From positions 1 through 34,527 of the forward strand of contig RGVC01000002.1 in NCBI GenBank assembly GCA_010027485.1: 34,527 nucleotides of DNA. The letters run 5' to 3'. Within the stretch, counting starts at the first letter, position 1. Each line of letters starts with the position of its first letter. Under the pieces are notes generated by a model. The model was not told where the DNA came from. It saw only the letters and a program-made list of their open reading frames with translations, and did not search any database. Below are positions 7,814 through 26,268 of this stretch, one piece after another. This DNA comes from a bacterium (GTDB lineage: Bacteria; Patescibacteriota; Saccharimonadia; Saccharimonadales; UBA4665). A program made the position numbers and the translations under genes.

Positions 7814-8263
7814 ATGGAAAAATTTAATCAGAGCGCTAAATACGAAAACGAAGAACAGCCAATCAGCGAACGTTTTACGGAATTTGTCATTAGCCACATC
7901 GAAGATTATGAAACGCCTAGAGGTCTTGGGGACAAGAAAGAATCAACTTACGTAATCGATAAGTCTAAGCAAGTAATGCCCTTCAGACACCTTGTGTTCT
8001 CTGTTATGAACAACGACGACATCTACATGGAAGATATTGATTCCAGTTTTATTTCATTAGATTTTTATATGGACTACGGCAAAGATGCCAACAAAAATAT
8101 GAGTCTAGTGCTGGTAAGGCCAAATGGAGTTGAAAGTACTGGCGGTTATTTCTTTTTACACAATGACAATGACATTGATATAGATGTGACCGACGGTTTT
8201 GTAGAAGATATTATCGGTTCAGTCGGCGATATTGACCTAAAGCAAGAAGCTAATTCTTTATAG
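7814..8263 (+). CDS. acidic protein of unknown function
   Basis: ORF with ATG at 7814 (MEKFNQSAKYENEEQP...); the track's start at 7787 is TTG. Confidence 0.55.
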   Translation: MEKFNQSAKYENEEQPISERFTEFVISHIEDYETPRGLGDKKESTYVIDKSKQVMPFRHLVFSVMNNDDIYMEDIDSSFISLDFYMDYGKDANKNMSLVLVRPNGVESTGGYFFLHNDNDIDIDVTDGFVEDIIGSVGDIDLKQEANSL

Positions 8264-9353
8264 TAATGTACTTCTTGGGTGGGTTTTTAGTTTCTAGTGG
8301 TTTGGTGTACTTAGTAATCGGCTGAATTGTAAATTGGATATGCGAAGCCCGCACGCTGTTATTGGTTTTTTCGGTAACTTTAAGAATTTCCAAGGTGTAG
8401 CCGGCGTTGACTACGCTTGAAGTTTGACCGGCATTTAACTTAAATAACGCATCGGTCAAAGCTGGTGCTATATCTCTGTCGTTGGCAGTTATTGGTTTGG
8501 CATATTGACCGCCACTACCCTTTGTACTCAAATCATCTGATTGAGCGCTGGCAACAGTAGCAAAATCTGTGCCACTTTGAATTTGTTTTAGAGCGCTCTC
8601 GGCACGAGCCTGAGTTGCCGTATCTAGCTTAACTGCTACAGCCTGTTGCAACAGTTGTTGCCGTAGTTCCTGTTTGAAGTCTGACTCATTCCAGCCCCAG
8701 AACTCTTTTAAAACCTCTTTAAATACACGATCGCTATTGCCTAGACGATTTTCATTACGAACTAAGACTAGCTGATTATTAACCTGCACGTTAGTCACCT
8801 TAACGCCGTTTTTTGCGGCCAGTTGCTTAACGTAGGCATCCTGAATAACCTGATTGAGCGCTTGTTTTTTGAGTAAAACCAATTGATCTTTGCCTGAACG
8901 GCTAGAAAAGTCTGTTTTTTGCTGAGTGGCATAGTAATGCATGTTTCGTCTTAGCTCAAAAAGATAAGATTCATAACTAACCCAAGATGAACCAACTTTA
9001 GCAACAGGAAAAGGAATAACTTTGGTAACACCATACATAAAGCCGTTTGTTACCTGCAACTTATAGAGCCCCGCTATGCAGTAGGCAAAGAATGCAATAA
9101 TTACGGCCACTAATAAGCCGATGGATATCTTGACTATAGAGTGCTTGGAGTGTTGCAGTGGATAAATAAATTTACGAGCACCTTTTAGCACCTCTTCGCG
9201 GTGTTCGGTAACTGTCTCGTTGGTAATTCTAGGCACATTAGAAATAGCCTCGCTCATACGCTCTTCTGCAGGCTTGCGACGCAATAATTTATCACGCGCT
9301 GTTTTAGCGGTTGCTGATACTTTTTCTAATTTAGGCTTTTTAGGCTTCTTCAT
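8250..9353 (-). CDS. membrane-anchored SurA/PrsA-like peptidylprolyl isomerase (parvulin-type)
   Basis: N-terminal TM, SurA_N-like helical region, parvulin-like FATVASAQSDDLSTKGSGGQYAKP...ALFKLNAGQTSSVVNAGYTLEILKV. Confidence 0.8.
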   Translation of the reverse strand: MKKPKKPKLEKVSATAKTARDKLLRRKPAEERMSEAISNVPRITNETVTEHREEVLKGARKFIYPLQHSKHSIVKISIGLLVAVIIAFFAYCIAGLYKLQVTNGFMYGVTKVIPFPVAKVGSSWVSYESYLFELRRNMHYYATQQKTDFSSRSGKDQLVLLKKQALNQVIQDAYVKQLAAKNGVKVTNVQVNNQLVLVRNENRLGNSDRVFKEVLKEFWGWNESDFKQELRQQLLQQAVAVKLDTATQARAESALKQIQSGTDFATVASAQSDDLSTKGSGGQYAKPITANDRDIAPALTDALFKLNAGQTSSVVNAGYTLEILKVTEKTNNSVRASHIQFTIQPITKYTKPLETKNPPKKYITIKN

Positions 9354-11399: not shown

Positions 11400-11445
11400 C
11401 TAATAGATAACAAGAGCTTGACCTAATAGATAACAAGAGCTTGAC
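11400..11445. repeat. 23-bp perfect tandem duplication
   Basis: CTAATAGATAACAAGAGCTTGAC x2 (11400-11422, 11423-11445). Confidence 0.97.
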
Positions 11446-12539
11446 GTTTCTGCTTTGTTTTTTTCACTGTCAAGCATATTTACGTAAGTGGTTATGGTGG
11501 TTTCAAGACCAGCCTGTGTTGTTGCTGTCGCTACTTCAAGGCGCTTACAAATACTTGTAGACTGTAGTACATAAGCAGGACTTTCATTACTGATGTCAAT
11601 TAGTATACTTGGGTTTTTCAACGGAACCCTTACCTTAATACGCTTTACAACGTCTTGTGCTTTTGCCGTTACGTCTATTTCTGCTTGAGTATTATACAGA
11701 CTGTTAGCTTCTGGTGTAGGAAGACCTGAACCATAGGCAGTTTTATTGGCTGTTAACGTAAATGTCGTATCTGCCCTGGCGTATGGAGCAATCATGCTAA
11801 ATAGATACTTACTAGTGCCATTATTATTGTTATTGAATTTATATTCACAAGTACCAGTGCTTGTACTGCAGCTTGCAGTATATTTACTGGCAACATTATT
11901 AGAAGAAGAACAAGATGCTGTAGACAAACTATTATATGAGGTCTGTGGAGTGCTGCTACTTGGGTAAATAAACATGTTATATGTTTTATTAATAAGACAT
12001 GATCTACTATATTCAGTATCTTTGAGAGGTGTTATAGAAATTTGAACGATAGATGGAGCTTTATAGTTCGAATCATTTACAGGGTTAGTTGATGTATTGC
12101 TCAATACGCTGTTGCTCTTGGGGTTCTGCCACTTAAAGGAAAAACTAGCAGCGTTATTACCATCTCCAACGTCTATAACAAAATAGTTGCCATTGGGGTT
12201 AAAGGTACTTTGATAATCCTTCACTGAAGTTGTATTCAAAAGCACGCACGTTACCTTAACTCCATTTGTTCCTGCTGATGACCCTAAGTTACTATAGGTT
12301 GTGTTGTCACAATTACCGATATCGGAAAAGGAATTTGTATTGAGTTGTTTCACAACTCTATTTACTGCAGATTCTGCAGCAAAATTTGCTTGAGTCGATA
12401 ACTGCTGATTAAGGCTGTTTTGTTGTTCTCTTCTTGCAATTTGTGCAAAACCCAAAGTAATCAATGAAAATACTAAAACTAAAATAAGTGATACCACTAT
12501 AGAAGCAAAAATTTTACTCCTACAGTCTAGAAGTAACAA
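11400..12539 (-). CDS. PilX-like pilus assembly protein with tandem-duplication-altered C-terminus
   Basis: FASIVVSLILVLVFSLITLGFAQIARREQQNSLNQQLSTQANFAAES N-terminus; position in pilus cluster; start codon uncertain (TTG). Confidence 0.75.
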   Translation of the reverse strand: MLLLDCRSKIFASIVVSLILVLVFSLITLGFAQIARREQQNSLNQQLSTQANFAAESAVNRVVKQLNTNSFSDIGNCDNTTYSNLGSSAGTNGVKVTCVLLNTTSVKDYQSTFNPNGNYFVIDVGDGNNAASFSFKWQNPKSNSVLSNTSTNPVNDSNYKAPSIVQISITPLKDTEYSRSCLINKTYNMFIYPSSSTPQTSYNSLSTASCSSSNNVASKYTASCSTSTGTCEYKFNNNNNGTSKYLFSMIAPYARADTTFTLTANKTAYGSGLPTPEANSLYNTQAEIDVTAKAQDVVKRIKVRVPLKNPSILIDISNESPAYVLQSTSICKRLEVATATTQAGLETTITTYVNMLDSEKNKAETSSSCYLLGQALVIY

Positions 12540-13042
12540 CTGTTTTTAATGATGTTACAGCACAATATTTATATGAATTATCTACCTTACATTTAGGATC
12601 GCTAAGATCGCTCGTATCTACAAGATTATCTTTACTTCCATAAAGCAATGCAGCTTTGATATTGTATTGTTTACCGCCAAGTGGTTGGTCTATATTGAAA
12701 GATGTAAGCATTGAGTTATTTGGCACTAATTCATCTCCTGTATTTGACGCCTCGCAAGTAGCACCTGGACCCATGTATGATCGTTTGAGAGCGTAGTCAG
12801 TTGATGTTGGCATTACTCCTATTTTATAGCTGTACTTGATATTGCCAATACAATACACACCTGTGGTTATACCTATTAGCGTCATCTATTTTCGTTTTAT
12901 AAATGCCTTTTGAATACAGGTTTCCAATACTAATCATCACAATAGTTACTAAAAGTAGTACGAATGAAAAACCAGCCATAGCTATCAACAATTCGACTAT
13001 GGTGAAACCAGATTTTTGTTTTACTAAGTTAGTTGTAGACAT
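12520..13042 (-). pseudogene. PilW-like minor pilin broken by a frameshift
   Basis: Frame 1 (12824-13042) carries SGFTIVELLIAMAGFSFVLLLVTIVM...KIDDANR; another frame (12520-12885) carries the plausible C-terminal part VYCIGNIKYSYKIG...YCAVTSLKTVVTS. Confidence 0.7.
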
Positions 13043-13463
13043 AAGTCATCTCCGCAGTGTATTGTTTGCTGCCCATCTGCCATGCAGCTTTTGTTGTATA
13101 GATGTTGGGGTTAGCAGTTTCCCTGCGAGAAATAGAAATCTGAAAACCATCCATATTCGTGCAGGAATCTTCTGTGCTAGGTTTTAATACAGGATTTGCA
13201 ACCCCGTTATTGGGTTCTGGTATGCAGTAGCTTTCAGCATTAACGGTCCAGGCAGACAAATCAGTAATACGTAGATATTCAACTTGTTGCTGAAGAAGTG
13301 CTGTCGCTTCAGCATTCTTTCTAGCTACCGCAAGAGCCATAATGCTACTATTGGCTATGGAGTAAGAGATTGACATCGCTAAACTAAGTATTGTTAGAGC
13401 AATCAAAACTTCAACTATGGTATCGCCTTTTTTACCATTGTTTTTAAACAAAATCATGTGCAA
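13029..13463 (-). CDS. PilV-like minor pilin
   Basis: GDTIVEVLIALTILSLAMSISYSIANSSIMALAVARKNAEATALLQQQVEYLR. Confidence 0.8.
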   Translation of the reverse strand: MHMILFKNNGKKGDTIVEVLIALTILSLAMSISYSIANSSIMALAVARKNAEATALLQQQVEYLRITDLSAWTVNAESYCIPEPNNGVANPVLKPSTEDSCTNMDGFQISISRRETANPNIYTTKAAWQMGSKQYTAEMTYVYN

Positions 13464-14137
13464 TTAGTTCTCCCGTAGAAAAAGTCTGTTTTAACACCTA
13501 GAACATTTTTGTTGTCTCCAACTGTAACTTTAGCACTAAATCTTCCATTGGTTAGACATACAGACAGCCCTGTGGTGTTATTTATTATGTTGTTGTCTGC
13601 GTCAATGAGCAAAATATTCTGAGCACTCAAAGAACTATCGCCAAGTGACCCATCTGGATTCAGTACAAAACCAAAAGTTTGATTAGCAGTAGGATATAAT
13701 CCTCCTGAAATAACATTACTGGTATCTATTACACTTACTTCTTTTAAGCCAATTGAGCTAAGTTGTACGCCGTCAAGCCTCTTGCCGGCTAGGGTTGCAA
13801 TAGTATACTTTGGTTCTGGACTAGAAAATTTGATTTTCTTACCTAGATAAATGCAGTCTTTTTTTGTGGCCTGTTCATTAGTACCAGCCACTGGGTTTAT
13901 ATTACCTAATAGATCAATTGAACAATTAAGCGGTCGATCACTAAATTGACCACTGCTGACCTGATTAATAATGTCCTGAATCCTAGATGCCATTTCATTC
14001 ACTCCAGTGCGAAAAGAGGTTTCTGCGACACGCCCAGAAATGAAGGCGTTGGCAGCAATGAACATTGCAGAAGATATAGCCAGTACTATTAACACCTCTG
14101 TAATGGTGTAGCCTGTTTTGGTTTTGCCACCTCTCAT
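13454..14137 (-). CDS. FimT/GspH-like minor pilin
   Basis: GYTITEVLIVLAISSAMFIAANAFISGRVAETSFRTGVNEMASRIQDIINQV. Confidence 0.8.
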   Translation of the reverse strand: MRGGKTKTGYTITEVLIVLAISSAMFIAANAFISGRVAETSFRTGVNEMASRIQDIINQVSSGQFSDRPLNCSIDLLGNINPVAGTNEQATKKDCIYLGKKIKFSSPEPKYTIATLAGKRLDGVQLSSIGLKEVSVIDTSNVISGGLYPTANQTFGFVLNPDGSLGDSSLSAQNILLIDADNNIINNTTGLSVCLTNGRFSAKVTVGDNKNVLGVKTDFFYGRTNCT

Positions 14138-14146
14138 AATGCACTA

Positions 14147-14155
14147 ATTATAGCA
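14147..14155 (-). promoter_or_regulatory. extended -10 (TGCTATAAT) with very short leader upstream of the minor pilin operon
   Basis: TGCTATAAT ends 9 nt from the ATG at 14137. Confidence 0.5.
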
Positions 14156-14179
14156 CAAGCGTAATCTGTAAATTGCAAA

Positions 14180-15031
14180 CTATACAACTAAGAATGTACG
14201 TTGATACCAACTAATAATTTCTGTGCCGAAAAGTACCGTAATATACGTGGCAAAAATTAGAAAAGGACCAAACGGTATAAGTAATTTTTTCCTAGATTTA
14301 CCAGACGCAAGCAATGGCACGGCAAAAAGCGTTCCGCCGAGGCTTGCCAGGAATATTACCAGAAGCATTTTAGCAGGATCGGCAACTAATACACCGAGTA
14401 GCACTGCTAGTTTTACATCACCACCACCTATCCAATTGCCACCAGAAAGCTGGAAAATAGCATAGAACAGTCCACTACCTAGCAAAGCCGCAATTACAAT
14501 CATAAGTGCCTGGTGAGCCACGTTAACAGATGAGGCTTGCCAAAAAACTTGCATGAAAACAGCTACAATTAGCGAAAATGCGATTATTGAGTTCGGCAAA
14601 ATCATATATTTGATGTCATAAACAGACAAAGCCACTAGGCTTGTTAAAACAATTAGCCATAGCCCAAAAACAACTACTCCTGTACCAGTTATAAGAATTG
14701 GCCAGTAAATATAAGAAAAAACAAACAATCCAGCTGTAGCCAGCTCAACTAGTGGATACTGCCAAGAAATAGGCTTAGAGCAGTATCTGCACCTACCGCC
14801 AAGCATCAACCAGCTAACTACAGGAATAAGATCGGTCACACCTAGAGTATGATGGCAATTCGGACACATAGACCGGCTATTTGCCTTAGAAAGCTGCTTA
14901 ACAAGCTTCTTGTCACCCTTGCCCTCACTCACCAACTCCTTCTGCCGAAGCCTCCACACAAGAGCATTTACAAAACTCCCAAGGCATAACCCCGTTATAA
15001 TAAGCAACACAATATTCACTAGCAATATCAT
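14180..15031 (-). CDS. pilD: type IV prepilin peptidase/methyltransferase
   Basis: CPNCHHTLGVTDLIPVVSWLMLGGRCRYC cysteine motif and GGGDVKL catalytic motif, multiple TMs. Confidence 0.93.
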   Translation of the reverse strand: MILLVNIVLLIITGLCLGSFVNALVWRLRQKELVSEGKGDKKLVKQLSKANSRSMCPNCHHTLGVTDLIPVVSWLMLGGRCRYCSKPISWQYPLVELATAGLFVFSYIYWPILITGTGVVVFGLWLIVLTSLVALSVYDIKYMILPNSIIAFSLIVAVFMQVFWQASSVNVAHQALMIVIAALLGSGLFYAIFQLSGGNWIGGGDVKLAVLLGVLVADPAKMLLVIFLASLGGTLFAVPLLASGKSRKKLLIPFGPFLIFATYITVLFGTEIISWYQRTFLVV

Positions 15032-15041
15032 AGCACATAAA

Positions 15042-15069
15042 AAAACAGGGTTATGTTTAACCCTGTTTT
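15042..15069 (-). terminator. Rho-independent terminator between pilin remnant and pilD
   Basis: 12-bp stem AAAACAGGGTTA/TAACCCTGTTTT with T7 on the minus strand. Confidence 0.75.
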
Positions 15070-15082
15070 ATATAAGGTGAGA

Positions 15083-15226
15083 CTATTGTGCGTCTAAACA
15101 GCCACCGATTGTTGTGCCGCCATCAAGAGGGTAGTATACAGCTATGTTTGTTTTAGTTGTGGATGCTTTATACGTTACGCCAAGCCCACTACACTAAGCC
15201 CCTGTAAGCACAGTTAGTTTGTTCAT
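15083..15226 (-). pseudogene. pilin remnant: pilin SD/start fused to an alternative pilin C-terminal disulfide-loop module
   Basis: Single-frame translation MNKLTVLTGA*CSGLGVTYKASTTKTNIAVYYPLDGGTTIGGCLDAQ*; C-terminus resembles SCVGTTPTTLTTADKTRAVVYYVNDGGGSSCVTAN of the adjacent pilin. Confidence 0.8.
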
Positions 15227-15246
15227 TTGCAGGTGCCCCTTTGCAA
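15212..15246 (-). repeat. 35-bp direct repeat, copy A
   Basis: AGTTAGTTTGTTCATTTGCAGGTGCCCCTTTGCAA, identical to 15763-15797. Confidence 0.97.
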
Positions 15247-15248
15247 AG

Positions 15249-15278
15249 TATGAAGGACATTGTTAAATGTCCTTCATA
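15249..15278. terminator. hairpin downstream of the pilin gene (terminator or mRNA stabiliser)
   Basis: 12-bp perfect stem TATGAAGGACAT/ATGTCCTTCATA, loop TGTTAA; no strong T-tract. Confidence 0.6.
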
Positions 15279-15297
15279 TAGTTTAAGCAAACTTAAC

Positions 15298-15777
15298 TTA
15301 ATTAGCAGTTACGCAAGAGCTTCCACCGCCATCATTAACATAATATACTACCGCCCTGGTTTTGTCTGCAGTAGTCAAGGTTGTTGGTGTAGTACCCACA
15401 CAACTAGCCGAAACATATATATACGCAGTATTAATAGTAGTGGGTAGATCTGCCGCTTTCGCCGGTACAGTTGCGGTTGGCGCATCAACTGACCTTAATT
15501 GGCTATTGCCAACGTTAGCTCTAGTTTTAATCTCCGCTGCAGTTGCCCCAGTTAGATCAGCATTATTGTTGTCACTTGCCCATGCTGTAAGCGCGCTAGC
15601 GATTCTTGATGCGTCTGCTTTACGAGCACTATTACGTTGATTGTTTTGTAGAGCTGGTACTGCAAGTAGTACGGCTAGGATAATTAGCGCGCCGATAGCT
15701 AGTACGATCAATACTTCGATAATGGTGAAGCCTGATTGCCCTTTTTGAGAGTTTAGTTTGTTAGTTAGTTTGTTCAT
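15298..15777 (-). CDS. type IV pilin, probable major pilin
   Basis: Prepilin motif SGFTIIEVLIVLAIGALIILAVLLAVPALQNNQRNSARKADASRIASALTAW; C-terminal Cys pair; SD AAAGGGG. Confidence 0.88.
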   Translation of the reverse strand: MNKLTNKLNSQKGQSGFTIIEVLIVLAIGALIILAVLLAVPALQNNQRNSARKADASRIASALTAWASDNNNADLTGATAAEIKTRANVGNSQLRSVDAPTATVPAKAADLPTTINTAYIYVSASCVGTTPTTLTTADKTRAVVYYVNDGGGSSCVTAN

Positions 15778-15797
15778 TTGCAGGTGCCCCTTTGCAA
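15763..15797 (-). repeat. 35-bp direct repeat, copy B (SD and start of the intact pilin)
   Basis: Identical to 15212-15246. Confidence 0.97.
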
Positions 15798-15885
15798 TTT
15801 AATTTTAATCGCGTTATTACGCTTATGATTAGATATTATATTCTTTTTCTACTATAAGCAAGTACTTTTTTTTGGTGTGGATAAG

Positions 15886-16335
15886 TTATAGTTGTCTACA
15901 CTGTGACATGGACGGGTCAAGTGCATATAGGGCGACTATATCTCTGGAACCACCAGCTATAAATTTACCGGTTGTTGTAGTATCGCAGAGTGCATTATTA
16001 TAAATATATATTTTTGACGAATCTGTTACTGAGTTAGGGTCTGTGTTTAATCCTGAAACGATTGGAATCTTAATCGTAACATTTGTTGCCACATATATAC
16101 TTAAGGCTGGGAATGTTAAAGGATTTGTTGTGTCTGGAAATCTACCCATGTTTTGGAGACGGTAATCGGAGACGGCCTGGAGGATGGCAGAGACATCGGC
16201 TTTACGCTTGCTGTTGTTGTTCCATCTGTTGATTGCCGGAATGGCTAAGAAAACCATCATGAGTATTAATCCACCGATGGCGAGTACGAAAAGTACCTCT
16301 ACTATGGTAAAGCCTTTTGCTTTACTATTCTTCAT
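15886..16335 (-). CDS. type IV pilin
   Basis: KGFTIVEVLFVLAIGGLILMMVFLAIPAINRWNNNSKRKADVSAILQAV; ATG at 16335 with GGAAGG SD preferred to GTG at 16353. Confidence 0.85.
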   Translation of the reverse strand: MKNSKAKGFTIVEVLFVLAIGGLILMMVFLAIPAINRWNNNSKRKADVSAILQAVSDYRLQNMGRFPDTTNPLTFPALSIYVATNVTIKIPIVSGLNTDPNSVTDSSKIYIYNNALCDTTTTGKFIAGGSRDIVALYALDPSMSQCRQL

Positions 16336-16339
16336 GGCC

Positions 16340-17554
16340 TTACCTTCCACCAAAACCAGATTGATTGGCTAGGCCGTATATTGGAAGTAGGATTGCTGCG
16401 ACAAGTATAAAAGCCATAATGCCCATTACAATCATCATAACGGGCTCAATTATGGTGCTGATGGTTTTAACTTCGTTATCTACTTCTTTTTCGTAGTAAT
16501 CGGCTACTTTGCCCATCATTTGTTCCATAGCACCGGATTGCTCGCCAATTTTTATCATTTGCGGAACAAGATCTAAGAATTCAGGTTTGTTTTCAATGGA
16601 CTCGGACAATGATTTGCCACCCTTTACCTGCACAATTGCTTGCTTTAATGTGGCTTCAATATGCACATTGTCTATTGATTCGGCGGCTATTTGAAGCATT
16701 TGCACCAGTGGCACGCCACTAGAAATTAATGTTGATCCAGTGCGCGCAAAACGGGCCATGTATAGTTTCATAAACAGTGGCGCAATTGGCCAAGCACGCA
16801 TTTTTACACGATCAAATACTGCCTTGCCAGGACCGGATTTGATCCACCTGAAGCCTGAAACACCAAAGATAACGACAAGTATAATAACCAAGTACCAGAA
16901 ATGGGTTATGAAGTGCGATACAGCAAGTAACAGTCTAGTAACAAATGGCAAAGAAGCACCTGGAATACCACTGTAGATATTCTGCACTTGCGGCAACACC
17001 TTGACCACCATGAATGTGCCCACGCCGGCCATTACTAGAAGCACAATTAATGGATAAATCATGGCTCCACGCACCTTAGATTTCACATCAGCATCTTTTT
17101 CTTGTTGGTTAGCAAGACGCTCTAAGCCTTTATCTAGTGTGCCTGATGTTTCGCTGGCTTCAACTAGGCTCACGAATATCTTATCGAATATTTTAGGGTG
17201 TTTGGCTAAAGACTCGCTAAAAGATTTACCAGCTTCAACATCGGATATGACTTGTTTAATTACTTCTTCGAAAGCTTTGTTTTTAAGCTTGTCGGCAATA
17301 CTGCGTAGACTTTGCACTAAGGGCAAGCCGGCATTAATGAGGGTAGCTAGTTGCCTGCTAAACAGTATCTTGTCTTTAGTCTTAATGCGTGTTCCACCAA
17401 AAAGCTTGTTGTTGGTTTTTTCTTGTATTGTAATTGGAATTAAACCTTGTTTTTGAACAAGTTTGGTGGCTTCTTTTTCGTTGTTGGCCTGCACCAATCC
17501 TTTTATTTTTTTTCCAGTTTTGGTGTTTTGTGCCTGGTAGGTAAACGTCAGCAT
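16340..17554 (-). CDS. pilC: type IV pilus inner-membrane platform protein
   Basis: Two GspF-like repeats (FSRQLATLINAGLPLVQSL; FARTGSTLISSGVPLVQML). Confidence 0.93.
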   Translation of the reverse strand: MLTFTYQAQNTKTGKKIKGLVQANNEKEATKLVQKQGLIPITIQEKTNNKLFGGTRIKTKDKILFSRQLATLINAGLPLVQSLRSIADKLKNKAFEEVIKQVISDVEAGKSFSESLAKHPKIFDKIFVSLVEASETSGTLDKGLERLANQQEKDADVKSKVRGAMIYPLIVLLVMAGVGTFMVVKVLPQVQNIYSGIPGASLPFVTRLLLAVSHFITHFWYLVIILVVIFGVSGFRWIKSGPGKAVFDRVKMRAWPIAPLFMKLYMARFARTGSTLISSGVPLVQMLQIAAESIDNVHIEATLKQAIVQVKGGKSLSESIENKPEFLDLVPQMIKIGEQSGAMEQMMGKVADYYEKEVDNEVKTISTIIEPVMMIVMGIMAFILVAAILLPIYGLANQSGFGGR

Positions 17555-17558
17555 TGGT

Positions 17559-18626
17559 TTAAGACCTCATCAAGCGTTTAAGCTCTTCTGTGTCCACTGC
17601 ATAATTTAAGGCTTCATCAAATGTAATTGTGCCTTGGTTTACTAAGCCAGCAAGCTCTTTGTCCATAGATTGCATACCAAATTCTGAGCCAGTTTGGATG
17701 ACTGCCTCTAGCTGATGAGTTTTGCCTTCCCTGACTATGTTTCTTACGGCTGGTGTTGAAATAAGTATTTCTGATGCAGCGACCCGTCCACCGTTTATAG
17801 ACGGAATAAGCCGCTGGGAAACTACGGCCATTAGTATATTAGCGAGCTGAGCTCGAATTTGAGGTTGCTGGTGTGGCGGGAACACATCTATCATGCGGTC
17901 GATTGTTTGTGAGGCGCTATTAGTATGCAGGGTAGCAAATACTAAGTGTCCAGTTTCGGCTATAGTAATGGCGCTAGCAATGGTTTCTAGATCGCGCATC
18001 TCGCCAATTAGCACTACATCTGGATCTTGGCGCAGAGAGCTCCTAAGCGCCGCTGAAAATGAGTAGGTATCATAGTGCACTTCCCTTTGAACAATAATAG
18101 ATTTAGCTGATTTATGAGTGTATTCAATAGGATCTTCGATAGTAATTATATGCTTGCTTTGTTCTTGGTTTATTTTGTTTATAAGAGCAGCAAGCGAGGT
18201 AGACTTACCTGAACCTGTTGGGCCGGTAAATAGTACTAGGCCTCTAGGGTAATCAACCATTTTATTGACTATTGCTGGCAAGCCGAGCTGTTCAATTGAC
18301 ATAATCTGACTAGGTATGAGTCTTAGAGCTGCTGCTAAGTTGCCACGTTCATGAAAAGCATTAACTCTAAATCGGCCAATATCACCGTAGGCAAAACTAA
18401 AATCAAATTCTTTGTCTTTTAATAAGATTTGCTTTTGGTCTTCATCTAAAATAGCAAATACTAGAGCCTCGATTGCCGACTCATCCAAAACTTCTGCACC
18501 GTTTACGGGCGCCAGTGTACCATCCACTCTAAGCATCGGTGGCAAGCCCACCTGCAAGTGAATATCAGAACCTTTTCTTTTTATTACTTCTTCGAGTAAC
18601 AGTTCTATTTTTGGTTGAGATTGCAT
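17559..18626 (-). CDS. pilT: type IV pilus retraction ATPase
   Basis: GPTGSGKSTSLAALI, LRQDPDVVLIGEMRD, AETGHLVFATLHTNSASQTIDRMIDVFPPHQQ. Confidence 0.95.
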   Translation of the reverse strand: MQSQPKIELLLEEVIKRKGSDIHLQVGLPPMLRVDGTLAPVNGAEVLDESAIEALVFAILDEDQKQILLKDKEFDFSFAYGDIGRFRVNAFHERGNLAAALRLIPSQIMSIEQLGLPAIVNKMVDYPRGLVLFTGPTGSGKSTSLAALINKINQEQSKHIITIEDPIEYTHKSAKSIIVQREVHYDTYSFSAALRSSLRQDPDVVLIGEMRDLETIASAITIAETGHLVFATLHTNSASQTIDRMIDVFPPHQQPQIRAQLANILMAVVSQRLIPSINGGRVAASEILISTPAVRNIVREGKTHQLEAVIQTGSEFGMQSMDKELAGLVNQGTITFDEALNYAVDTEELKRLMRS

Positions 18627-18645
18627 TTTTTATGCCCTACCCTTT

Positions 18646-20448
18646 TTATGCATTATCTATCGCTGCCACTCGGTTAATTTCTTCGATGGTCGTTCGTCCA
18701 TCCAGCGCTTTTAGGTATCCGTCTTGGCGCATGTTTACCATACCCTCAACTTCTGCTACGGCCGCTATTTCGGCACTAGTAGCTTTTCGCAGAATCAATT
18801 TTTGAATTGTATCTGTTATCTCGAATACTTCGTATAGTCCAAGACGACCCTTAAAGCCACCTGGAGTATCGGGTGTATCTTGACCCTTATATAAAGTATA
18901 AGCGGTTTGGCTAGCAAGTGGCAAGGTTTTATAGCCTAAATCTTCTGAAACCGCAGGTACCTTATCTGGTGCCTTCGGCAACAATTTACCAACCGTTGCC
19001 TGAATGGCGCCTGTTTCGGCTGGCGATGAAGCGTATTTTACTTTCATACTTTCATCTATTTTACGCACCAAACGCTGTCCTATAACTGTATGGACTGTAC
19101 TAGCAATCAAAAACGGCTCGATGCCCATTTCTAGTAAACGAGGCAAAATACCAGCCGCACTGTTGGTGTGCAGGGTGGCGAAAACAAGGTGACCGGTAAG
19201 AGCTGCTTCCACTGCTAGCTGAGCGGTTTCTTTGTCGCGAATTTCTCCAACCATCACAACGTCGGGATCTTGGCGAAGAATACTTCTAAGTCCTGTAGAG
19301 AATGTAAGTCCAACTTCTGTGTTTACCTGAATCTGGTTGATACCTTCCATTTTGTATTCCACTGGATCTTCAAGCGTGACGATGTTTATGCCGTCTCCCA
19401 TAATTTCCTGAATAAGCGCATACATGGTGGTTGACTTTCCGGAGCCTGTTGGGCCACTGGTAAGTACCATGCCGTTTGGCCTGCCTAGGCCTTTTCGAAT
19501 CATTCTTAGCGACCGGCCAGCGTAACCCATATCTTCTAGCTTTAAAGTTGTGCCAGACTTATCTAGTAAACGAATCACCACCTGCTCACCCCAAACAATT
19601 GGCGCAATTGCAATACGAAGATCGATACTCTTACCGTCCACTAAAACACTAAAGCTACCGTCTTGAGGGATGCGGTGCTCATCGATTTTTAAGTTAGACA
19701 TGATTTTAATTCTAGATATTAGGGCTGGTTCGATAGTTTTCGGCAGGCGCATAATTTCTCTTAATATTCCATCAATACGACAACGAATTTTGACTTCTTT
19801 TTCGATTGGTTCTATGTGAATATCACTGGCGCGGTTATGTGCGGCGTATTCCAAAATGGCCGTTAAGGCCTTAGAGATCGGTGAATCGGCAACGATTGTT
19901 TTAATTTCGGAGGCTGAATCTTTTTTACCAGATTTTTTCCCTGCTTTTTCCTGTGCAGACCTAGACTTTTCTTCTCCGTCCATAGCGCTAGATAAATCAG
20001 TGTTTATGTTGGACTGGTACTGTTGCATTACATGGCGTATGCCCGCTTCGCTTGCCACATACACTTTTAGCGGTCTACCAATACGATTACTCAAGAAATC
20101 CACCGCCTGAACATTGTCGGCGTCGAGCATAGCCACTACTAGCCTGCTTTGCATCTCACCCAAAGGTACTGCCATGTATCTTTCTGCAATATCGATAGGT
20201 AGAAGTGTGAGGATTTTAGGGTCCACCTTGGCATTTGTAAGGTTCACATAAGGCACCCCGGTAATAGATGAGTTAGCTTTTACTAATTGTTCTTCTGTGA
20301 TGTATTTTTGCTTTATTAAAAACCCAATTAGCGGTTGCTTAGCCTTATCTGATTCGGTCTTAGCCTGCTGCATTTTTTCGGCTGTTAGCATGCCCTCCTT
20401 AACAAGAGACTCTTCTATTTTGAGTGCTTGTGTAGCTGGCTCAGCCAT
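18646..20448 (-). CDS. pilB: type IV pilus assembly ATPase
   Basis: GspE N-domain, GPTGSGKSTTMYALI, LRQDPDVVMVGEIRD, ALTGHLVFATLHTNSA. Confidence 0.95.
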   Translation of the reverse strand: MAEPATQALKIEESLVKEGMLTAEKMQQAKTESDKAKQPLIGFLIKQKYITEEQLVKANSSITGVPYVNLTNAKVDPKILTLLPIDIAERYMAVPLGEMQSRLVVAMLDADNVQAVDFLSNRIGRPLKVYVASEAGIRHVMQQYQSNINTDLSSAMDGEEKSRSAQEKAGKKSGKKDSASEIKTIVADSPISKALTAILEYAAHNRASDIHIEPIEKEVKIRCRIDGILREIMRLPKTIEPALISRIKIMSNLKIDEHRIPQDGSFSVLVDGKSIDLRIAIAPIVWGEQVVIRLLDKSGTTLKLEDMGYAGRSLRMIRKGLGRPNGMVLTSGPTGSGKSTTMYALIQEIMGDGINIVTLEDPVEYKMEGINQIQVNTEVGLTFSTGLRSILRQDPDVVMVGEIRDKETAQLAVEAALTGHLVFATLHTNSAAGILPRLLEMGIEPFLIASTVHTVIGQRLVRKIDESMKVKYASSPAETGAIQATVGKLLPKAPDKVPAVSEDLGYKTLPLASQTAYTLYKGQDTPDTPGGFKGRLGLYEVFEITDTIQKLILRKATSAEIAAVAEVEGMVNMRQDGYLKALDGRTTIEEINRVAAIDNA

Positions 20449-20453
20449 CTTAA

Positions 20454-20705
20454 CTATCTCCCAGGAGAATTAAAAGGATCAGTGTTAGAATTTTGTCCGA
20501 TAACAATTATTCTGGTTGGGTCAAAAGCTGATGAGTTATAAAAACGCTTGTCTGGCTGCTGAAATGTAGAAGTAATTTGCGGAACCACCTCTACTTGACT
20601 CTGTCTGTCCTTGGGTGTTACGAACACATAATTAGAAATTATGAACGAGAATATTCCACTGACCACTACAATTACTGCGATTACGGCTATGTCTTTTTGC
20701 TTCAT
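20454..20705 (-). CDS. small single-TM protein of the pilus operon
   Basis: N-terminal TM, located between pilO and pilB. Confidence 0.6.
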   Translation of the reverse strand: MKQKDIAVIAVIVVVSGIFSFIISNYVFVTPKDRQSQVEVVPQITSTFQQPDKRFYNSSAFDPTRIIVIGQNSNTDPFNSPGR

Positions 20706-21373
20706 TTCACCACCTTTTTCTCTATCTTGAATTCTTTGGCTGGCTGGTAGTAAGTATGTGCAGTAAACGTAATAGTCATATTACTAGAAGAACCGCTAAC
20801 ATTTACTTGGTCTATAACCATTGGTCGGATTGATTTTTCTAAGCTATCAAATAGGCCTTGCGCCGCACTATAGTTGGTGGTGACTGTAAAGCCGAATGGC
20901 ACCTTAATAGCAGTTGGAGCTCCGCTACTTGCTGTATTTTGAGCATTGGGATCATCTACACCAGACACACTTGTAAAGTTTATGTTGCGGTCTTTTAAAA
21001 TTTTCTCAACAGATGAGGTAAGAGCCGGAAAATCGTAAACACTCGGCAACGAATTAAGAACGATTTTGGCATTATTGCCATCATTATCTCCAGTGCCCTT
21101 TTGGCTCCCGCCGATTACATTAGGGTCGGCATTATTAAATTTATTGTAGGAATTCTGCAGAGTGTTATAGGCAGCTACATTGGCATCTAGTTGTTTTTTG
21201 GCACTTTCTTTGGCAACAGCAACATGAGATTGATATTTGTTTTGACTGATTAATGCGTTGGAAGCCACTAAACAGAAAATTACTATAAATGAAGCAGCGC
21301 CAACTATGCCGACCATACGTGCATTGGTTTTGGATAGCTGGGCAGCTTTTTTAGATAATGAGCTTTCGGCCAT
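20702..21373 (-). CDS. pilO: PilO-like pilus alignment protein
   Basis: N-terminal TM, coiled coil, position after pilN. Confidence 0.75.
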   Translation of the reverse strand: MAESSLSKKAAQLSKTNARMVGIVGAASFIVIFCLVASNALISQNKYQSHVAVAKESAKKQLDANVAAYNTLQNSYNKFNNADPNVIGGSQKGTGDNDGNNAKIVLNSLPSVYDFPALTSSVEKILKDRNINFTSVSGVDDPNAQNTASSGAPTAIKVPFGFTVTTNYSAAQGLFDSLEKSIRPMVIDQVNVSGSSSNMTITFTAHTYYQPAKEFKIEKKVVK

Positions 21374-22054
21374 TTAGTTACCCTCCTGTTTTGGTGCGTC
21401 TTTAAATACCTGCGTGGGTTGTTCGGTAGATGATCTGGTAGAGGTCTGATTAGGTACACTTAGCAATATAGTCTTGTTGATATCGAATATTACAGGGTCA
21501 TATTGAAAACCAACAGAATAGGTTGCGCCTCCCTGACCGCTCACGGCATAAGAGCTTAGCACTACACCGCTAAAAGCTTTGGCGCTGGTCTTGCTTTTTT
21601 CTATTTTATATTGAGTAAATTTTAGAGTATCAACATACTTATTAACGCTACTTAGCGTTGGTGCGGTTCCTGTGATTGTAATTTTATGAGTATTAAAATC
21701 AACAGTAAAATTAGTAATGGATACATCCGATGGTGTAGTTTGAATCAAATAATTAAACAGTCTAGACGCTGCGGGCTTTGAAGCGTGTAAGGCGGTCAGG
21801 CTATTTAGCTGGTTTTGAACGGTAAGAATTTTTTTAAGCTGTGAATCTTTTTGTATTTGTGCGGTTGTTTTTGCAATGTCTTGGTTTAAGTCGTTAATAT
21901 GTTTTTTTTGAATTTGACTCAAAGAAAACAGCGTTACAACTAATGCTATTGCTGCCGCACTAGCCAATAAAGAAGCCACAATAATTATGCGTTGAACACG
22001 ACTGGCTTTGACTAGTTCTTGTTTTACATCTGGTAATAGATTTAGCTCGATCAT
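21374..22054 (-). CDS. pilN: PilN-like pilus alignment protein
   Basis: MIELNLLPDVKQEL start, TM, position after pilM. Confidence 0.85.
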   Translation of the reverse strand: MIELNLLPDVKQELVKASRVQRIIIVASLLASAAAIALVVTLFSLSQIQKKHINDLNQDIAKTTAQIQKDSQLKKILTVQNQLNSLTALHASKPAASRLFNYLIQTTPSDVSITNFTVDFNTHKITITGTAPTLSSVNKYVDTLKFTQYKIEKSKTSAKAFSGVVLSSYAVSGQGGATYSVGFQYDPVIFDINKTILLSVPNQTSTRSSTEQPTQVFKDAPKQEGN

Positions 22055-23091
22055 GCTTTACGCTCCGCTAAGCCGACTGCAACTGCAAACTGATTAGATA
22101 ATGCTAGTAACTCATTTTGCCTGGACTGGCTGTATGCTACATTTCGCCAGGAATTGCCTATTTCTATGTTCATGCCAAATTTATTCGCCAAGTACAGCGG
22201 AAACTCAGGAATCACAGATGCGCCACCTGTAACAATTATGTTACTAACCTTCTCGCCAGCATATCTAGTCTGATAAAACTTTATAGACTTTTCAATCTCG
22301 GTGCACAGACTGTCAATGGTCTGCACTATGGAGTTTACAACTTGACCTTCCAGCTTGGCTTTGGTCATTCCAAACTTGAACACGAATTGTTCTGCCTGCT
22401 TTTGGTCGACATTTAAATTATCCATTGCTGATTTCACTATCGATTCCACTCCAGTTGGTATACTGCGTGTCAAAAATGGTATACCGCCTTTTATTATTAC
22501 TAAATCGGCAGATCTGCGTCCAATATCTATTATGATATGCGGGGTGGCATCTTGAGGCGTCAATGCTCTGGCCATTGCTAAATTATCTGGTTCAAAAGCC
22601 ACCACATTTAACCCGATTGCTTCTAGCATATCCAAACGATCTTCAACATATTTATTGGGAATACTAGTTAAAATAATTGATTGTTTAGTTTTGTCGGTTG
22701 GCGAATCACCAATCACTGCCCAGTCAATTTTTGACTCATCAATAGGCGTAGGAATCAAAGAATCTGCTTGTAATTTGATGGAGTTAGCTAGCTCTTTAGG
22801 TGGTAGCCTGTCGACATCGGCAATAGTAGTAAATACCCTATTAGATGGAATGCCTACTGCGACATTTTTGGTGCTTAAGACTGTTTTAGAGACTAATTGC
22901 TGTATAATTCCAGCCAGTTTTGCCCTATCAGACGCTGAATCACTCATGGAAATACGGCTATCTATTGGTACGTAAGAATATTTAACTAAAGTCTTGGACG
23001 CGCCAGAGCCACGCAACTGGACAAGTCTAATAGCACTAGAGCCAATGTCTAGTCCGAAAAAGTCTTCACTAACAGATAATAACGGGCTCAT
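22051..23091 (-). CDS. pilM: type IV pilus assembly actin-like ATPase
   Basis: FFGLDIGSSAIRLVQL, IIDIGRRSADLVI, IIVTGGASVIPEF. Confidence 0.93.
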   Translation of the reverse strand: MSPLLSVSEDFFGLDIGSSAIRLVQLRGSGASKTLVKYSYVPIDSRISMSDSASDRAKLAGIIQQLVSKTVLSTKNVAVGIPSNRVFTTIADVDRLPPKELANSIKLQADSLIPTPIDESKIDWAVIGDSPTDKTKQSIILTSIPNKYVEDRLDMLEAIGLNVVAFEPDNLAMARALTPQDATPHIIIDIGRRSADLVIIKGGIPFLTRSIPTGVESIVKSAMDNLNVDQKQAEQFVFKFGMTKAKLEGQVVNSIVQTIDSLCTEIEKSIKFYQTRYAGEKVSNIIVTGGASVIPEFPLYLANKFGMNIEIGNSWRNVAYSQSRQNELLALSNQFAVAVGLAERKA

Positions 23092-23217: not shown

Positions 23218-26200
23218 TCACAGTATTGGAGGCATATTCTTTATTAGATTATAAGGATTCTTGGTTGTGTTTTCATTTCCAGTATTAGTTCCATTGATGT
23301 ATATTTCTGGACTTTTTACAAACACTTCTGCAGCACAATTAGTATACTCCTTAACTGTTCCTGAATTATTATTGCATGAGGCTGGGTTAGAGTCATTAAT
23401 ATCTCCAAGCGTCCTTAGCAGGTTGATTTTATTGGCTATGAATGAACCATATACAAGTAACTGCTTATTACATTCAAAGAGTGAAAGTATTGGTTTCTTT
23501 GAACTATTAACGCAGGTAAAAATAGCATTGTTAGCAACGTAGGTTCCATCGAGTCTAGTGACATTTTGGTCAATGTATATGTTGCCTGTAGCCCTGATTA
23601 CCAATGAGGGGATACTGACACTATCAGACCATGAGCTATCACTGGCGTATTTGATATTGTTTTTTATATATATGTTTCCGTCTACATTTACCACTATGCG
23701 TTTGCCTACGGCAATTGTTTGCGCTCCTGAATTGCCAATGGTTACATCGCTTTTATAATTCTTAACTCCGGTATTAGTCAAGGCATCGCTATCTGCGTAT
23801 ATTATGGTACTGTCTGCAACACTTACTGGGCTTCGTGCACAATTTGTTTTAAATAAGCCCCCAAGTTTCGGACTAGTACTATCTACGGTAGTGTTAGTGT
23901 TAGTATTTGCAAAGGATAGACCCGCAGGACCATAGGTTGAGCCAATTGAACTTGCAAAACCTACTATTGGATTATTTGATATTGAAGCCAGTGTTGTTCC
24001 TGACCCATTAGCAGCACCGCTATTGTTATAGTATCCTGACAATAAACCAAGATTGCATCCTGCCATCACACTTCCATTAATAGCTTGAAAAAAAGGATAC
24101 TTACTTGTGGTCGTTGTAGTGGGATCTGGTGGTGGATTTGCTGCCACTACTGAACATACTGCATTACTAGAATAAGTACTACCGTCACCATATTGTAAAC
24201 TACCAGCAAATATTTTTTCACAAACCTTATCGCCTACCTTGTAGCCATTTGCTGTGGTTGGCTTAAACACATCATTGACATTATTAGGATTATAACCATT
24301 TGACCGGACATTATCGGCAGGTAGCAATGCTTGTTTTTGGCCGCTCAGGGTCACATCGACAACGGATATACCCAGTGCTGATGAACCTTTTTCATTGGCG
24401 TCAACCTGACTAGGAGTTGTAGTGCTTTTAGTTACTTTATACCTTCTGACAATGAATTTATAATCAATCGGGTATGGCGAAGCATTCTTTACGGAGTGTG
24501 TAAAAGTTATATTATTGTTTAGTTTAACTGAATTTGGCGTGACCGAAGTTCTAGTCTCTACCTTGGGTATACGACGGTAATAGAAGTATATATTTGTCCA
24601 CTTATTGTTGTTTAGGTTGCCTTCCTGCCAACTAGGAAAACCCTCGGGCAATTTATCATTCAGTGGAGGCGTGTCTGATGAAGCCGAGTTATTATAGTCT
24701 GTTTTTACCATAACGCCATCATTTGCAATAGCGCCTGCTTTAGTGCCATATCCATGAGATTTAGGGAAGATTTTGTCTTCCACTACCTTACCTCCTTGTT
24801 TAAAAGCAGTAGGATTCATATACCTGTAATAATACTTTTTTGTGGGGCTTACCGGCTGCCAAATGCTGGGAGCAGGATGGCCCACAACGCTCCATGTTGG
24901 CTCAAAACTATAGCATGTATCGTAGTAGTATATTCCGTCCGCACTACTATCGGTTGTATAAGTGTAACTTTTATATTGATTAAGAGTTTTAGGCATTTGA
25001 CCTTTGAAGTTTATTACACAATTAACAGCTGTTTTAAAATATTTTACAGTATTATCGTTATTGTCAACGGTTAGTTTTGTACCGCCTATAGATTTGCCGG
25101 TATTTATGTCTACCGAGACTAGATTAAATTTAATTCTATGCGCTGGACAATCAATTTGTTCTGCACTAACATTCTTGAAGAGAACATTTTCAATTATTCC
25201 ACTACGGCTTTCCTTATTGCTTAACATCATTGGTTTGCTGCTAGAAAATTCTTTGTAATTTTTAGGTAGATATTTTTTTTTGTAAAAACCTAAAGCCTCA
25301 TTCCATGAATTAAACTTAGCGTTATTGATACTTTCCAGTCGAACGATCATTAAATTTCCAGTTTTAGAAGCAAATATTGGCGTGGTGTCACCTTTATTCT
25401 TTAGTTTTTTGATTTGTTCGTCGGTGTTGTACCATTTTTTTGGTTTATAGCTCATGAATGATCCGCTGTCCAAATCGTTGAAGTATTGTTGGTCTACCTG
25501 ATAGCCTTCTTTATAATCTACAGTTGTTACTGGGCCGTTATAAAATTTGCCCAGTTCATCAGTGTTAGAACTTCTACTGCCTTCTCCGAAATACTGTACA
25601 TCAACCTTTTTAGATATTGATTCTTTACTAATATTCTGTTTAACTAATCGTTCCAATTTCTGCATTCTACTTTGAGCATCATTTAGTAATCTAGGCTTAT
25701 CCGAATCATTAGCCTGTAAGTAAAACGGCGTATCTAGGTTTAGTGCTACTATAAAAATATCTCTTCTAGTAATTAGATTTTTGTCTAGTTTATTTTGTAG
25801 GGCTTTATTTTCCTTAACTATCCTAAGTATTACACTAGAGCCAGCTAAATAATTTTTATATTCGCTCGGATCCATTTGTGATTTAAGGTCTGGGTCTATT
25901 GATACATACAAGTCGTCATTGCTTAAATTTAATTTATAGTTATTGAGCTCATTTTTTAGCGAAGCATTCAAAACTAGGTCGTCAACAGCCGCCTGCCTTG
26001 GCGACTTATCTTTCAGAGATATGTTGTTTTCTTTATTGTATAGTCTCAGTTCATTCTCATAATTATCTATTTGTTTCTTAGTTATTGTCTGATCACCGAT
26101 TTTAATGTCATCAGATGACTTAATATAAAAAATTTGGTACAAAAATATGCCAGTAATTGTTATAAGTATAAAAACAGATACAACTAATAGGGTTCTTTTC

Positions 26201-26268
26201 TTCCTCAGAAAAACGAGAAGCCTATTATTCGTATTGCTATCTGTTGCTTCCACGTCTGCCATAAGCAT
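23218..26268 (-). CDS. large membrane-anchored surface protein, candidate pilus-associated adhesin
   Basis: 1016 aa; N-terminal TM; SurA_N-like segment (IKIGDQTITKKQIDNY...QAAVDDLVLNASLKNELNNYKLNLSNDDL); long beta-rich, Thr/Asn-rich C-terminal part; next to pilM. Confidence 0.7.
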   Translation of the reverse strand: MLMADVEATDSNTNNRLLVFLRKKRTLLVVSVFILITITGIFLYQIFYIKSSDDIKIGDQTITKKQIDNYENELRLYNKENNISLKDKSPRQAAVDDLVLNASLKNELNNYKLNLSNDDLYVSIDPDLKSQMDPSEYKNYLAGSSVILRIVKENKALQNKLDKNLITRRDIFIVALNLDTPFYLQANDSDKPRLLNDAQSRMQKLERLVKQNISKESISKKVDVQYFGEGSRSSNTDELGKFYNGPVTTVDYKEGYQVDQQYFNDLDSGSFMSYKPKKWYNTDEQIKKLKNKGDTTPIFASKTGNLMIVRLESINNAKFNSWNEALGFYKKKYLPKNYKEFSSSKPMMLSNKESRSGIIENVLFKNVSAEQIDCPAHRIKFNLVSVDINTGKSIGGTKLTVDNNDNTVKYFKTAVNCVINFKGQMPKTLNQYKSYTYTTDSSADGIYYYDTCYSFEPTWSVVGHPAPSIWQPVSPTKKYYYRYMNPTAFKQGGKVVEDKIFPKSHGYGTKAGAIANDGVMVKTDYNNSASSDTPPLNDKLPEGFPSWQEGNLNNNKWTNIYFYYRRIPKVETRTSVTPNSVKLNNNITFTHSVKNASPYPIDYKFIVRRYKVTKSTTTPSQVDANEKGSSALGISVVDVTLSGQKQALLPADNVRSNGYNPNNVNDVFKPTTANGYKVGDKVCEKIFAGSLQYGDGSTYSSNAVCSVVAANPPPDPTTTTTSKYPFFQAINGSVMAGCNLGLLSGYYNNSGAANGSGTTLASISNNPIVGFASSIGSTYGPAGLSFANTNTNTTVDSTSPKLGGLFKTNCARSPVSVADSTIIYADSDALTNTGVKNYKSDVTIGNSGAQTIAVGKRIVVNVDGNIYIKNNIKYASDSSWSDSVSIPSLVIRATGNIYIDQNVTRLDGTYVANNAIFTCVNSSKKPILSLFECNKQLLVYGSFIANKINLLRTLGDINDSNPASCNNNSGTVKEYTNCAAEVFVKSPEIYINGTNTGNENTTKNPYNLIKNMPPIL

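Follow-up and report, generated by a model that had tools for sequence, protein, structure and literature searches.

The window, the whole 34,527-nucleotide stretch of DNA analysed here, carries at positions 23218-26268 an open reading frame (ORF) for a protein of 1016 aa, the same extent and length that a first-pass annotation had given it. We found that the ORF lies on the minus strand, running from 26268 to 23218, an orientation absent from that annotation; the plus-strand reading of this interval contains 61 stops. The protein is the sole homologue in its own genome (680 kb, 106 contigs), and its gene is the first of a complete type IV pilus (T4P) operon, all of it on the same strand. The expected position just upstream of pilM was borne out, with pilM (22051-23091) beginning after a gap of 126 bp. 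It is followed by genes at 16340-22054 that we take, by homology and gene order, to be pilN, pilO, pilB, pilT and pilC, and then by a block at 13029-16353 made up of two pilins (15886-16353 and 15298-15777), pilD (14180-15031) and minor pilins (13454-14137 and 13029-13463). The series ends with a PilX-type minor pilin at 11400-12539, which matches Pfam PilX_N above the cut-off (E 6.4e-7) and is the docking partner proposed below. Between two minor-pilin genes lies a 121-aa ORF (12520-13029) without a pilin N-terminus, which may represent one piece of a split pilin, or a frameshift. Named relatives reached through pilM were nearly all Candidatus Saccharibacteria, and the window most likely comes from a genome of that group. 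A second T4P set is found on another contig of the window's genome (G000 contig C10, locus L320, 5704-15650), where pilB, pilC, pilM, pilins and a gene for a 624-aa PilX-like protein adjoin a recA-looking gene; in the study of TM7x pili, a second T4P set with recAX is confined to clade G1 (PMC12206443).

The protein begins with a transmembrane (TM) segment at residues ~17-49 (26122-26220, minus strand), seen in the first-pass annotation and recovered here both by hydropathy and as an AF2 helix at residues 19-49. The SurA_N domain by which SurA/PrsA-type foldases are recognized was found with both Pfam and hhalign, in agreement with the SurA/PrsA N-domain-like segment reported earlier. Residues 18-142 (25843-26217, minus strand) matched SurA_N_3 at E 5.8e-7, with 29.9 bits against a curated cut-off of 27.2, and the whole-genome family search supports the same assignment. 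An AF2 model of residues 55-340, built from 24 relatives, shows a helical domain of SurA_N type followed by a parvulin-like one, with pLDDT mostly 75-97. In profile-profile comparison, the N-terminus matched the 24-member family of the genome's own stand-alone foldase with a probability of 92% (E 5.9e-7), and pilM, used as control, reached 0.4%. SurA was also the best Foldseek match of the N-terminal model, at an E of 0.034 (above the usual 0.001 limit) and a probability of 0.38; the SurA claim therefore rests on the sequence profile. The parvulin/PPIC-like domain at residues ~166-333 (25270-25773, minus strand) is assigned from its AF2 topology and from a Rotamase match, below cut-off at E 0.003, in a separate homologous partner (L024). 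PPIase activity seems unlikely for the window copy, because the ASHIL or G[FY]H hallmark histidines of parvulins are missing from it in our reading of the alignment.

Residues 1-340 thus have the order of TM, SurA_N and parvulin-like domain seen in PrsA/SurA/PpiD-type membrane foldases, but they differ from these in the missing histidines and in being fused to a client-like body of ~680 aa. The window genome also encodes a normal stand-alone, membrane-anchored SurA/PrsA-type foldase (8250-9353, minus strand; SurA_N_3 E 1.5e-14, Rotamase E 7.9e-12), with orthologues in 30 of 31 genomes searched. These orthologues often lie ~15-20 kb from the pilus body gene on the same contig, and at its C-terminus the window's stand-alone foldase seems to begin another, truncated parvulin domain (RASHIQFTI).

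The remainder of the protein is a beta-rich, Thr/Asn-rich body. No cysteine occurs in residues 1-340 and 11 follow after residue 340, and there is a single PPP, at residue 712; the PPP and Cys residues attributed to the body, and the C-terminal segment quoted for it, were correct. An Ig/CnaB-like beta-sandwich is predicted at residues ~374-480 (24829-25149, minus strand) by an AF2 model of low confidence, with weak Foldseek matches to Gram-positive pilin Ig domains. Behind it, after a linker, a conserved C-terminal domain (C-domain) occupies residues ~725-1016 (23221-24096, minus strand) and includes the near-invariant Cys738 (83/83), Cys810 (85/88), Cys919 (91/91) and Cys933 (90/91); Cys705 is conserved in 82 of 84 sequences. 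AF2 modelling of residues 590-1016 with 91 sequences reached a pLDDT of 84-94 over approximately positions 245-370 of the fragment and gave a short-strand pattern typical of a solenoid, and we consider a beta-solenoid the probable fold of this domain. The best PDB neighbours of the model were triangular solenoids, namely DUF3494 ice-binding proteins (probability 0.95) and the Thermus pilin ComZ (0.80), at Foldseek E values of 0.05-0.1 that exceed the usual 0.001 limit and indicate fold class only. Pfam DUF7305 (PF23981) weakly and repeatedly covers the same region in several family members (best E 1.6e-5); all its genome matches fall below the curated cut-off and the window copy is unmatched. 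The chain ends in a free tail, MPPIL-COOH (23221-23235, minus strand), corresponding to a family consensus of LPP[VI][LFY], and the pattern [PSA]P-x-[LFYV]-COOH is present in 107 of 111 homologues.

Searches of the PDB found no sequence relative of the whole protein or of either profile, NCBIfam and PHROG searches found no family for it, and a viral fold library gave nothing significant. Two candidate identities were rejected. The protein is not a type IV pilin, having a bitopic TM and SurA_N N-terminus and no N_methyl or PilX_N match; nor is it anchored as a Gram-positive LPXTG protein, as it ends in MPPIL-COOH with neither an LPXTG motif nor a C-terminal TM.

Pilus synteny in related genomes and similarity to SurA_N had been set beforehand as tests of the first-pass reading. 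The similarity is real by Pfam, AF2 and profile comparison, and the synteny was found in 100 of 109 homologous loci, where pilM follows immediately or with a tandem copy in between, at a median gap of 81 bp. A profile of the C-domain matched 254 of the 295 genomes of the order, covering 130 of 143 genera, and 203 of the 223 good genomes. Family members range from 364 aa, which amounts to a signal plus the C-domain, to 2081 aa. Homologues away from pilus genes include some in one genus of family f35 as well as L276, L281 and L294. One f35 genus (L143, L144, L146, L147, L163-L171) no longer has the body gene at the pilM locus, and its tail is mostly E[LIV]APR[YQWR] instead of LPPVL. At L163, away from pilM, the gene stands beside minor pilins in the arrangement pilin-pilin-PilX-like-TM-body, and in other f35 genomes (L259 and L264) a PilX-like gene adjoins the body gene.

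Tandem copies show how differently the two ends of the body evolve. In three pairs the C-domains are 75% (L031), 72% (L046) and 60% (L068) identical, whereas the N-terminal bodies, at 26%, 25% and 24%, are at the level of shuffled sequences (24%, 25% and 26%, respectively); other tandem pairs retain some head similarity. Tandem duplicates of the body gene occur at L031, L033, L037, L046, L060, L068, L080, L098, L101 and L113, mostly with a TM partner for each copy, and they keep the C-domain, with heads that are often unrelated.

Most relatives secrete the body as a protein of its own, with a signal peptide, a likely cleavage site and no second TM; just ahead of its gene, and often overlapping it, lies a short gene for a membrane partner. 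Defining such a partner as a gene for 80-380 aa with an N-terminal TM within 30 nt upstream, we found one in 85 of the 105 homologues whose upstream side was visible; in 50 of 89 partner genes the overlap with the body gene is 4 or 1 nt. TPR_2 was matched by at least 29 of the 77 non-SurA partners, and in seven genomes (L024, L027, L034, L055, L056, L079, L113) the partner is SurA/PPIase-like. These separate SurA-like partners are homologous to the fused N-terminus (profile-profile probability 96.5%, E 7e-10, 238 columns). None of the five fused genes in the 105-gene set has a TM partner within 30 nt, an outcome with a chance of ~1.6e-4 in a simple hypergeometric calculation without correction for relatedness. 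Fusion is rare, occurring in 16 of 393 genomes at E 1e-8 and scattered across families f1, f24, f32 and f35; the fused N-terminus and the C-domain share one ORF in L021, L025, L028, L060, L255, L260, L261, L263 and the window. The first-pass annotation had seen a chaperone-like stalk carrying an adhesin body. Because the SurA-like part exists in relatives as an independent, often translationally coupled membrane protein, the sequence comparison argues instead for a fused helper, a foldase-like module that is usually encoded by its own gene. Most species thus encode a chaperone and its likely client separately, and a few as a single polypeptide, which is a rare arrangement.

At the junction of the two parts lie a hydrophobic stretch and a VSA site (GIIENVLFKNVSA followed by EQIDC; 25162-25212, minus strand), which are suggestive, and only that, of a relic signal peptide or cleavage site. 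Fused proteins tend to have a hydrophobic stretch and an [AV]xA site here, as a relic signal peptide would. The signal is modest over 15 fused proteins (combined chi2 56.7 on 30 df); in the window copy the hydrophobicity is weak, and 2% of shuffles score equally well. A profile of the post-junction beta-sandwich did not match the separate body proteins, leaving the fusion point unanchored by homology there. The fused form keeps its N-terminal TM, which would leave the body attached to the membrane if no cut is made at the junction.

The protein is almost certainly associated with the pilus, and its closest counterparts in plan are the PilY1/PilC tip adhesins of T4aP (PF05567). Secreted by way of a type I signal peptide, PilY1 combines a poorly conserved N-terminus with a C-terminal domain that is conserved; it acts with minor pilins in priming the pilus and remains at the tip (PMC7541494). 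Its contact with PilX is predicted to be a beta-strand complementation, with the PilY1 N-terminus outermost (PMC13190605). Common to both are the type I signal peptide (here in the non-fused relatives), many cysteines and the linkage to pilus or minor-pilin genes. Relatives also combine a variable N-terminus with a conserved C-terminus, and paralogues share the C-domain and differ in their heads; the window form instead has a TM and a fused foldase. The strand complementation predicted for PilX and PilY1 would suit the conserved free tail of the family. In contrast, the C-domain of the family is a predicted beta-solenoid where PilY1 has a seven-bladed propeller, the gene lies before pilM and not after pilX in most genomes, and PilY1 has neither a membrane partner nor a fused SurA-like module. 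The propeller domain (PF05567) had no Pfam match in the window protein, for which AF2 gives a solenoid; a search of 99 relatives was silent too, but so were its control genomes, and it counts for neither side. We therefore file the family as a functional analogue of PilY1 and not as a member, since the defining propeller was looked for and not found, and we ascribe to it the same plan because the C-terminus is conserved and the N-terminus swappable, and because of the signal peptide and the link to the pilus.

Two further pilus proteins are relevant. ComZ of Thermus thermophilus (PDB 6QVI) also carries a large triangular beta-solenoid; this is closest to the ice-binding protein FfIBP, and ComZ has been argued to sit at the pilus tip (PMC6561018). 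Both the ComZ solenoid and our C-domain match the same ice-binding protein, with a direct Foldseek E of 0.1 that marks a likeness of fold class only. ComZ differs in being a DNA-binding pilin whose pilin fold holds the solenoid as an insertion, whereas the window protein lacks a pilin helix. Another candidate T4P adhesin from a Saccharibacterium is PilX2 of Nanosynbacter lyticus TM7x, but it is a minor pilin with a beta-propeller and belongs to the second pilus (PMC12206443); the family described here is encoded in the conserved T4P-1 operon.

On balance, we regard the family as the probable PilY1-like tip or priming protein of the Saccharibacterial T4P and, with slightly less assurance, its variable head as a candidate for host binding. 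The variable N-terminal body would be carried by the conserved beta-solenoid, which would dock onto the minor-pilin complex, the free LPPxL tail probably supplying an extra strand to a minor pilin such as PilX. The body would then be pushed out at the pilus tip, where it could contact the host bacterium. In most relatives the body would be exported through its normal signal peptide, and the TPR or SurA/PPIase-like membrane partner, synthesized immediately ahead of it, would keep it at the membrane or assist its folding there. In the window genome partner and body are fused, so that the presumed chaperone and its client form one chain, perhaps split later at the VSA site of the junction. The first-pass annotation had proposed a host-attachment factor at either the pilus tip or the cell surface; the PilY1-like plan favours the tip, and attachment to the host stays a candidate role.

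A rather unlikely alternative is that the protein is a membrane-anchored adhesin of the cell surface, placed in the pilus operon for co-expression only, with the TM holding it, the SurA-like part acting as spacer or foldase and the body reaching the host. The window form has an N-terminal TM without a classical cleavage site beside it and a body composition that would fit an adhesin, and envelope proteins predicted to carry adhesin domains are essential in a related epibiont (PMC10633639). Anchoring is not the rule of the family, however, given the signal peptide, probably cleaved, and the lack of a second TM in the bodies of most relatives, and the strict linkage to pilM, or elsewhere to minor pilins, exceeds what shared expression would need. 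Moreover, homologues of 364-418 aa that consist of the C-domain without a head (L082, L084, L087, L091, L096, L099, L102) retain the link to pilM.

Those headless homologues would also suit a priming or assembly factor that binds no host. Its C-domain would cap or nucleate the filament, and its variable part would serve as a spacer, as a DNA receptor like ComZ, or as a species-specific plug. Near-universal presence in the order fits such a core part, and ComZ, whose fold is the nearest among solved pilus proteins, acts as a DNA receptor; yet the large, fast-diverging and swapped N-terminal bodies look ligand-facing and not like spacers, and we consider this reading improbable. Least probable is that the protein is a substrate or effector, released towards the host after export by the T4P/T2SS-like machine, with the SurA/TPR partner serving as its export chaperone. 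A signal peptide, a dedicated chaperone-like partner and an operon shared with a secretion-type machine speak for this; order-wide conservation, the fixed C-terminal tail, strict pilM linkage and family-domain searches that found no catalytic or toxin domain in the protein speak against it.

The tip-protein reading may extend beyond the order. In a phylum sample, 83 of 287 genomes matched the C-domain, ~60 of them outside the order, and the C-domain core is present in about a quarter of the sampled Patescibacteria there. At least 9 of 21 outside-order contexts are T4P loci, six with pilM directly downstream (L278, L279, L280, L282, L287, L292); in L288, L295 and L322, also from other classes, the gene lies inside a pilin/T4P cluster. 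An open frame of 25,343 codons in a class-level relative was discarded as a masked-N artefact, the real context there being a T4P cluster. A gene for ~170-230 aa also stands upstream of the solenoid protein in L276, L282, L286, L288, L289 and L294, which suggests that the two-gene unit is ancient. We tentatively propose, as something short of probable, a T4P tip complex found throughout the Patescibacteria, with a solenoid anchor and its donor-strand tail, exchangeable host-range heads and dedicated TPR/SurA-type chaperones, some of them fused and cut after export.

T4P genes are class I essential in the related epibiont S. epibionticum (PMC10633639). In TM7x, the essential nature of T4P-1 prevented its dissection, and the pilus study of that organism names no tip adhesin for this conserved pilus (PMC12206443). 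If our reading is true, the family would provide an order-wide host-recognition candidate for the conserved, essential T4P-1, and its clear division into a part that would dock and a part that would face outwards would make host recognition open to study in epibionts.
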